A DNA stretch of 64,000 bases from Cavenderia fasciculata (Eukaryota > Evosea > Eumycetozoa > Acytosteliales > Cavenderiaceae): assembly GCF_000203815.1 (NCBI RefSeq), contig NW_004457713.1, positions 201,358-265,357 of the forward strand. Reading direction: 5' to 3'. Each line of letters begins with the position of its first letter. Position 1 is the first letter of the stretch. Position numbers and translations under genes: made by a program. A model generated the notes under the pieces. The model was not told where the DNA came from and ran no database searches. It saw nothing but the letters and a program-made list of their open reading frames with translations. Of the stretch, positions 17,395 to 54,417 are shown in pieces.

Positions 17395-17730
17395 CTTCAA
17401 TACTCTTGGTATCTCTGTTTGCATATCGATTTTTAGTGGTCTCTAGAGATTTCTGTTATTCAGAATCTGTATGTACTGCGCAGACCTCTAGAATAGAATA
17501 ATGAGATGCTAAAAATACAATACAAGTACTAGATACAAGATAGATTGTCATAGAAATATGAATGATAAAAATACATAATAAAAACAATGAAAACGAGAGA
17601 TCATCGTTCGCCTATTAGTGGTTCTTATGGTCATCTACCACTAACCTCCTATGTAGAGGATAAAAAGTACAAGGCCACCTTTCATTCGCACCAAACCGTG
17701 GGAGGAATAGCACCCATATATTGGGAAAGG

Positions 17731-17890
17731 TGCAAAAAGGTGCAAAAAGGTGCAAAAAGGTGCAAAAAGGTGCAAAAAGGTGCAAAAAGGTGCAAAAAGG
17801 TGCAAAAAGGTGCAAAAAGGTGCAAAAAGGTGCAAAAAGGTGCAAAAAGGTGCAAAAAGGTGCAAAAAGGTGCAAAAAGGTGCAAAAAGG
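17731..17890. repeat. 16 perfect tandem copies of a 10-bp unit
   Basis: The unit TGCAAAAAGG is repeated 16 times without a single mismatch and is followed by a partial TGC. Ten is not a multiple of three, so it stays open in every frame of both strands and gives spurious Lys/Cys-rich or Phe/Leu-rich reading frames. On the minus strand each unit contains TTTTT, the RNA polymerase III termination signal, and the array starts about 10 bases beyond the 3' end of the adjacent tRNA gene. Confidence 0.97.
17884..17888 (-). terminator. First Pol III T5 terminator after tRNA-Glu
   Basis: On the minus strand this is TTTTT, 12 bases past the last base of the tRNA-Glu coding region, and it lies in the first of the 16 decamers. 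It is the nearest Pol III stop and would give a short trailer. The next 15 units each supply another T5 at 10-base spacing. Confidence 0.75.
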
Positions 17891-17900
17891 TGCTAGGAGC

Positions 17901-17971
17901 TCCCCTGCCGGGAATCGAACCCGGGGTGTCAGTGTGAGAGACTAAAGTGTTACCGACTACACCACAGAGGA
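17901..17971 (-). tRNA. tRNA-Glu (anticodon CUC)
   Basis: The 71-base sequence folds as a complete cloverleaf on the minus strand. The acceptor stem TCCTCTG/CAGGGGA has seven pairs including one G-U. The D stem is GTGT/ACAC, the anticodon stem TTAGT/ACTGA, the loop CTCTCAC with anticodon CTC, a 4-base variable region, and the T stem CCGGG/CCCGG with loop TTCGATT. A and B boxes are intact and no intron is present. CCA is not encoded. A poly-T terminator array follows, and a TRE-type retrotransposon end lies upstream. Confidence 0.95.
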
Positions 17972-18019
17972 ATCGATGCCTTGTTTTCAATCTCGGTTTG
18001 GCCTAGGTTGCCACGATTT

Positions 18020-18697
18020 TTTTCATTGCCAGAATAATGAAACGTACCCCAGCTGACACCAATACAATATGCTACGCATGCCACACTGTATTCGATGGGG
18101 ATACACACACATCTCCAATCATACACCATTTGTTTGAATGTATACACGTTCAACCACGAGCTCCACTGTTTAGCAAGTTGATTCTCGACTGGACCGACAA
18201 CAGAGTGCAGTGGAATGTCCACGCTCTCAACTTCACCAAGCAGAGAACACATCACAGACGCTATGTCAATGCTGTTGCTATACTCTTCCATCGCACATGG
18301 TGCCACCACCTGAATGTGCAATTCGACTTTGACGATGACCATCGCAACTACTCTCTCGACCCAAACGAAGCAGCAATCGTTACCAAACGATTCAAACTAT
18401 AATCTATCTTGAATACCCGAAACTAATCCAAAACTGCAAGTCGATTCTAGCTAAATGTCAACCTGATCGATGGTCGGTCACTAATCTCGAACTGATCGCA
18501 AACTTTAGTAAATTCTCTCTCATTTGGGGCAAACTAGCTTCACCCTATCGCATTCCCTCCTTCCTAACTAAAACTAACCACTATCTAACAACTACTCCAA
18601 ATTAAACAATAATAATTAAATCATTAATTTAAAAATAAACAATATGACTTCAGCGGTGATGAAGAGGTCAAAGATTTTATTAAAAAAAAAAAAAAAA
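18020..18697 (+). mobile_element. 3' end of a TRE-like non-LTR retrotransposon (LINE)
   Basis: A 5'-truncated element. An open frame at 18037-18402 has a zinc-knuckle-like CYACHTVF ... HHLFECIH pattern as found downstream of the reverse transcriptase in dictyostelid TRE elements. Clear coding similarity continues in another frame at 18405-18605 (RWSVTNLELIANFSKFSLIW) to a natural-looking C-terminus, so one frameshift separates the two parts. An AT-rich 3' UTR and a 16-base A run at 18682-18697 form the expected poly(A) end. The element starts about 50-60 bases upstream of the tRNA-Glu gene and points away from it. TRE5-type elements are known to insert about 50 bp upstream of tRNA genes, which fits. 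The reverse transcriptase itself is missing. Confidence 0.72.
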
Positions 18698-18765
18698 GAT
18701 TTTTTTCCTTATATTACCTTTCTTCCAGAAAGGAGGACGGTGGATTGCCAAAAGTGATACGAGGA

Positions 18766-18809
18766 GTCAGTGTGAGAGACTAAAGTGTTACCGACTACAC
18801 TACAAGGGA
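18766..18809 (-). pseudogene. Partial tRNA-Glu copy (5' half)
   Basis: Bases 18766-18809 match the acceptor 5' strand, D arm and anticodon arm of the intact tRNA-Glu, including the CTC anticodon loop, but the variable region, T arm and 3' acceptor strand are absent. About 30 bases of 5' flank (CTTGTTGACAACCTCGG-like) are also shared with the intact copy. It is a relic of a tandem tRNA duplication and lacks the B box, so it should not be transcribed. Confidence 0.8.
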
Positions 18810-19477
18810 TGGCTTGTTGACAACCTCGGTTTGCCCTAAGTCAATATATACCTGGGTTCCAATGAGAGAAACTAAAGGGTAGACCATAACTTGTTCAAAA
18901 ATAATCCAACTACCATACCAACTATGACCTACTACTAACCACTGAAAGGACGGTGATGAATCAGTGATATGAGTGACCCATTCTAATGAGAAGCAGAGGG
19001 GGTCATAAATTATTAACCCTGACAATAAATTATTTACAACCTAATTAATAGAGAGTAGTAAGTAAAAGGGGAAACCGTCTCAACACTAGGTCACCAGTGC
19101 ATCTCTTGATCTATAAACTACTTGATACATACGTATTTACTACCATTGATCCTTCTACCATAAAAGTATGATAGAGAATGTTAGAATACAGCAATGATTA
19201 CAACAGGTCGAATCCAAATGAATCATCAGGTTGTAAATACATACAACTATCAATCAGGACTGATCAAACTATAGCTCATTCCACAAAACTCTTCTCTCTA
19301 ATTTCTTTATATATATAAATATAACAAAGCAAAACAACTACAGAATAAAATAGAATAATAATTCATAATAACCCAACACCATTCATGAACAACCCTTTTG
19401 ATAAAAAAAAAAAAAAAAAACAAAGTTACACCCACTGCAGCCTATCTATATTTCTATCTTTGACTTTACCGATCCAT
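18810..19477. other. Intergenic region without a clear gene
   Basis: About 670 bases. The first 30 repeat the tRNA-Glu 5' flank. A further weak resemblance to the tRNA-Glu anticodon arm occurs at about 18851-18890 and may be a third, older relic. The rest is unremarkable AT-rich sequence with an A run at about 19402-19419 ahead of the next gene. No coding signal was seen. Confidence 0.5.
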
Positions 19478-54330: not shown

Positions 54331-54417
54331 ACTTTTGATGAAAAAACAGCTTGGTGCAAAAAAAAAAAATTTCTTTCTTCAAAAGTATACATCGCAACTT
54401 GGCTTTATTGTTATTAA

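Follow-up and report, generated by a model that had tools for sequence, protein, structure and literature searches.

The window analysed here, a stretch of 64,000 nucleotides, corresponds to positions 201358-265357 of contig 10 of the Cavenderia fasciculata assembly, which comprises 31.0 Mb in 21 contigs. ARAGORN calls one tRNA gene in this window, an intact tRNA-Glu(CUC), and the gene is followed in its direction of transcription by a perfect minisatellite with a 10-bp unit (Table 1). The mature tRNA body (17900-17971) is identical to that of two other intact CUC genes elsewhere in the genome. Because these paralogs with the same body are called at 72 nt and the window copy at 73, we take 17900 as the mature tRNA end, which leaves a short spacer before the array. 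Direct comparison confirmed that each base of the array equals the base 10 positions further on. As originally predicted, the array behind the gene is real, with 16 exact units and 16 T5 runs in the minus-strand sense, the latter appearing as A5 on the plus strand. The whole GGTGCAAAAA units lie at 17729-17888 and form 15 overlapping dimers. The start that had been assigned to the array (17731) required adjustment, the true edge lying 5 bp further out. Read in the tRNA direction, the unit is GCACCTTTTT, and the first T5 behind the gene (17884-17888) starts at approximately +12 from the mature end. The link of the decamer with this tRNA gene also held up in a search of the 31-Mb genome, in which the exact dimer GGTGCAAAAAGGTGCAAAAA occurs at 15 overlapping places, all inside 17726-17893. 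A scattered or transposed repeat is thereby ruled out, and a lone unit was seen in a scan of the window at 54353-54362. What did not survive is the claim that the 10-bp phasing places every T run on the same face of the DNA. The helical repeat of DNA is 10.5 bp per turn, so that a 10-bp repeat slips by 17 degrees per unit and by about 274 degrees across 16 units.

Table 1. Features at and around the tRNA-Glu(CUC) gene, in window coordinates
Feature	Position	Strand	Basis
Relic of a reverse-transcriptase-coding retroelement	17618-17725	+	DNA matches for 17618-17679; 17680-17725 by eye only
Perfect decamer minisatellite	17726-17893	-	168 bp, period 10, 16.8 copies, 100% match (TRF)
Six-base spacer, mature tRNA end to array	17894-17899	-	Paralog comparison
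Intact tRNA-Glu(CUC)	17899-17971	-	ARAGORN call
TRE5-like non-LTR element fragment	18021-18697	+	DNA and protein matches, position
Broken second tRNA-Glu copy: 5' part and upstream flank	18760-18841	-	84% to the tRNA region, by eye

The far end of the array abuts the relic of a reverse-transcriptase-coding retroelement. Its portion 17618-17679 matches DNA at four other places, including one behind a tRNA-Arg, one behind a tRNA-Pro and one in the element located behind the array of another tRNA-Glu(CUC) gene (L010). The L010 fragment is a longer copy of the relic element and contains an RVT_1 domain (Pfam). On the other side, 50 bp upstream of the tRNA gene, begins a fragment of a non-LTR element, of which the whole of 18021-18400 is matched at five other places and parts are matched at further places. 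The position of this TRE5-like fragment fits the rule, described in PMC5006619, that TRE5 elements of dictyostelids insert about 50 bp upstream of tRNA genes. A 121-aa piece of it gave no Pfam hit, and we infer its right end from a poly(A) stretch at 18682-18697. Beyond this fragment lies the broken tRNA-Glu copy, which is not called by ARAGORN and has a related upstream flank. Upstream of the window gene (17972-18021) there is no TATAAATA box, which both of its intact CUC paralogs have in their upstream flanks. The activity of this copy is therefore uncertain, though the pattern is matched by only 37 of 111 surveyed tRNA genes.

We surveyed tRNA genes in the genome for similar arrays. We drew on the Rfam tRNA model, which gave 63 scored and listed places out of 1670 first-look candidates, and on B-box patterns, with 54 places in one search and the first 100 of 111 in another. 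Further loci were picked because they resembled the window, and GGTTCAA-type B boxes are covered solely via the Rfam list. In the fetched stretches ARAGORN called 131 distinct tRNA genes, an incomplete survey of the tRNA set of the genome, in which calls that agreed in both the tRNA body and the first 120 bases downstream were treated as one gene. Our exact rule demands a perfect array with a unit of 7-60 bp (longer units are not counted), at least 2.5 copies and a start at +1 to +31. A loose rule, applied to TRF output, sets minima of 7 for the period, 2.5 for the copy number and 85% for the match, with +30 as the latest permitted start.

Exact arrays follow 13 of the 131 genes and are found in 11 of the 32 isoacceptor groups. 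The count is 10 of 128 without the three tRNA-Glu(CUC) genes from which the inquiry had set out. The local background, measured more than 400 bp away from tRNAs (10 exact arrays in 139.6 kb, from 40 loci with 2-kb flanks), would lead one to expect 0.29 rather than 13, though paralogs within an isoacceptor group are not fully independent and Poisson and Fisher values overstate the significance of this difference. The association of the array with tRNA genes is thus stronger than the original prediction, made from the window alone, could see. Further downstream of the same 131 genes, the next six 31-bp bins contain 2, 0, 1, 0, 1, and 2 exact arrays. Upstream, one of 111 flanks carries one (genes for which 55 bp or more of upstream sequence was available, flanks of 55-80 bp), a count that excludes units above 60 bp and therefore omits a 4.1-copy array of an 86-bp unit by a tRNA-Arg gene. 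Twenty rounds of dinucleotide shuffling of the 131 downstream flanks yielded no exact array starting at +1 to +31. Likewise, among 39 tRNA genes at 40 loci, five TRF arrays start at 0 to +30, corresponding to 4.3 per kb, whereas no other bin exceeds 0.4 per kb. The loose TRF rule finds an array at 23 of the 131 genes, two of these being A/T-rich stretches behind tRNA-Pro. The exact arrays start very close to the gene, at +1, 1, 1, 2, 3, 3, 3, 3, 4, 6, 8, 27, and 31 (11 of 13 at +1 to +8), and some of the Gly and Leu arrays reported by TRF start inside the last tRNA bases.

What these arrays have in common is their position, not their sequence. The other two intact tRNA-Glu(CUC) genes carry perfect arrays of 16-bp units (10.1 and 6.8 copies) that start 1 and 3 bases past the gene. 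Their units differ from each other at two positions and are both unlike the decamer. Of the 21 genomic matches to the pattern CTTTTTGGCNTGG, these two arrays account for 16. Over all 13 exact arrays, the periods are 8, 8, 10, 10, 11, 11, 12, 13, 13, 15, 16, 16, and 24. With units of 8, 10, 11, 12, 13, 15, 16, or 24 bp, the helical spacing that had been considered meaningful at the window locus is incidental. Since the periods differ across the class and a 10-bp spacing drifts in any case, helical phasing is ruled out as the purpose of the array. As to other types of gene, two U6-like loci, one above and one below the family cut-off, showed no tandem array in the flank by eye, a number too small to weigh, and nothing in the genome matched the 5S model.

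Some paralogs differ by whole repeat units. Across the 110 bp of trailer that were aligned, two tRNA-Asn genes (L097 and L096) differ by exactly one 10-bp unit and nothing else. In the case of Leu(CAA), L123 exceeds L122 by three 13-bp units, and there are further small differences in the flank. The L123 array starts inside the tRNA end according to TRF, and the tRNA end (TGCAT) and the L122 trailer (TTGCAGG) have GCA in common. The two tRNA-Thr(UGU) genes are followed by an almost identical 11-bp unit, present in 21.3 copies at one and 2.5 at the other. These paralogs differ in whole-unit steps of the kind that slippage or template switching gives. The proposal that the window array is a recent slippage expansion within the trailer is strengthened by the total identity of its units, by the different units of its paralogs and by these whole-unit differences between some paralogs.

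Other sequences flank tRNA genes in this genome. At L058, a tRNA-Arg(UCG) gene at 2000-2074 is preceded by 4.1 copies of an 86-bp unit, which contains the upstream flank with TATAAATA and apparently the first tRNA bases. Downstream, a box like ATTCTTGTTCTACACACTCGTGGCTA is found behind tRNA genes for Lys, Asn, Arg, Cys, Ser, and others, mostly at about +24 to +77, with a loose matching that permitted up to 9 mismatches of 26 and had no chance control. This box may represent a downstream Pol III element; in the same loose matching it was not tied to the arrays. A further sequence around ATGAAGGAAGGCGTGGTACGCTGC is common to eight isoacceptor groups at about +38 to +108 behind the gene and is probably the end of a tRNA-targeting element. 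Both surveyed tRNA-Thr(UGU) genes, L108 (C16:99923-100403) and L170 (C18:1799131-1799611), are followed by more than 200 bp without a T4, the first such run being found at +234 and +211, respectively.

We consider it probable that the window array is a young minisatellite that arose as the tRNA trailer was duplicated in tandem again and again, and that such events have a genome-wide hotspot at the 3' edge of tRNA genes. In other words, our data suggest that the ends of tRNA genes keep giving birth to short repeats and that the array is not a special stop device. The observations behind this view are the position and the number of the arrays, the identity of units within an array, the different units at different genes and the whole-unit steps in some paralogs. 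Mechanistically, replication forks may be stalled at the 3' edge of an active tRNA gene by the Pol III/TFIIIC complex bound to it, and the nascent strand could slip or switch template there. Such slippage would often use short direct repeats, provided either by the paired T runs of a double terminator or by bases of the tRNA 3' end. Extra T runs would then be copied merely because they are located in the duplicated trailer, and the arrays may be tolerated because the gene, usually with its first terminator, stays intact. We infer fork stalling at the Pol III complex from work in yeasts, where tRNA genes act as fork barriers (reviewed in PMC5368702), and fork pausing at tRNA genes has also been offered as an idea for the short tandem repeats (STRs) of Entamoeba (PMC2652664, section Origins).

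Alternatively, the arrays may be selected as terminators, with the extra T runs catching Pol III that has passed the first terminator or helping its recycling. Indeed, 8 of the 13 exact-array units, that of the window among them, contain at least one T4 or longer run, and double T runs are frequent: at least two T4 runs occur within +80 in 103 of the 118 trailers that lack an exact array. One terminator, which had been assumed to be normally enough, is thus not the usual state here. In yeast, primary termination is described as only partly efficient, with secondary T tracts acting downstream (PMC9278858). However, the remaining 5 of the 13 units have no T4, and close paralogs manage without arrays. 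The position of the T4-free arrays is not uniform either, since the Asp array follows the first T run and the Asn array precedes the first long one. At L108, a Thr(UGU) gene is followed by 21.3 copies of a unit with T3 at most and no T4 until +234. Because 5 of 13 units are without T4 and periods range from 8 to 24 bp, neither termination nor a 10-bp phasing is shared by the class, and the data do not support Pol III termination as a common cause. Selection for termination is an unlikely account of the class, though it may apply at single loci. The T runs in the units seem to be mostly passengers that might still play some part, given that 8 of 13 units carry T4 or longer.

Slightly less likely still is the possibility that the arrays are scars of tRNA-targeting retroelements, formed when staggered nuclease cuts are filled in without insertion, each event adding one unit of the length of a target duplication. 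By eye, elements seem to insert in the same zone, and published downstream insertion zones are 26-97 bp for Df_Skipper-2, 7-133 for Dp_Skipper-2 and 8-23 for Dd_Skipper-2 (PMC5006619). In addition, the arrays of the window and of L010 end against reverse-transcriptase relics. Yet 11 of 13 arrays have their start between +1 and +8, which is level with the nearest insertion sites on record or closer to the gene, and units of 8-24 bp vary beyond what would be expected for one nuclease. Sequence common to other tRNA families within +300 is rarer by exact arrays (4 of 13) than by genes without them (78 of 118), a comparison that is confounded by the arrays filling part of the +300, by conserved flank motifs that are counted and by missing at least the L010 element. 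The array as part of a retroelement is not supported either, as 9 of the 13 exact-array loci are without such common sequence within +300, with the same omission of at least the L010 element. This comparison does not favor elements as the cause and is compatible with arrays that keep elements away.

It is less probable again that tRNA genes only look special and that slippage happens in any AT-rich flank with paired T runs. T-rich units are frequent among the arrays and TRF reports many other repeats in the window, but the 64-kb window contains just two exact arrays of this kind, one of which is the decamer array itself. Moreover, when T-run pairs with fewer than three G/C in 30 bp are dropped on both sides, a T-run pair lies inside an exact array at 7 of the 63 tRNA trailers with a pair, versus 6 of 698 pairs elsewhere, which argues that the tRNA gene itself adds something. 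Finally, miscounted or false repeats in the draft genome are scarcely credible as an explanation, as there are many separate loci with different units, and because the 168 bp of the window array fits inside one ordinary sequencing read.

Returning to the birth of minisatellites at tRNA gene ends, a bolder version of this explanation, to which we give little credence, holds that dispersed tRNA genes continually generate new minisatellites at one fixed point, their 3' edge, and that these arrays act back on the gene. The arrays might function as weak distributed terminators, as conceivable for the T3-containing array behind the Thr gene, and as spacers that push downstream-targeting retroelements further from the gene. 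Natural expansions anchored at the same kind of site make minisatellite birth, and the role of stalled forks in it, directly testable.

Ordinary minisatellites also consist of perfect arrays of short units with differences in copy number. The arrays described here differ from them in being concentrated at one kind of site. The dictyostelid elements TRE5, TRE3, Skipper-2, and DGLT-A use the same tRNA flanks, as does the TRE5-like piece 50 bp upstream of the window gene. These tRNA-targeting retroelements (PMC5006619) account for insertions, not for perfect tandem arrays of trailer sequence. Fail-safe (secondary) Pol III termination in yeast resembles the present situation in that several T tracts lie behind tRNA genes, but the portion of PMC9278858 cited here does not describe these tracts as tandem minisatellites, and 5 of our 13 units have no T4. 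In the open-licence literature, judged by titles and the beginnings of abstracts, only work on Entamoeba was recognized as a report of such arrays, and the tRNA-linked STRs of Entamoeba histolytica and E. dispar (Tawari et al., PMC2652664) are the closest known case. According to this source, the STRs lie beside tRNA genes, have units of generally 7-12 and up to 44 bp, are wholly different in sequence between the two sister species and vary in copy number among isolates; its authors propose slippage, perhaps aided by fork pausing at the tRNA genes. Here, too, short tandem repeats are found directly beside tRNA genes, at 13 of 131 by the exact and 23 of 131 by the loose TRF rule, and as a dictyostelid, C. 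fasciculata also belongs to the Amoebozoa. The organization is different, however. In Entamoeba, most tRNA genes are reported to reside in long, tandemly repeated array units with STRs between the genes, and in E. histolytica all arrayed intergenic regions have STRs (PMC2652664). In our genome the listed tRNA places are scattered over the contigs, some pairs lying a few kb apart, with no tandem multi-copy units, and each array is attached to one dispersed tRNA gene, at its 3' edge. This suggests that Entamoeba-like repeats can do without a clustering of tRNA genes and may be part of a more general tendency.
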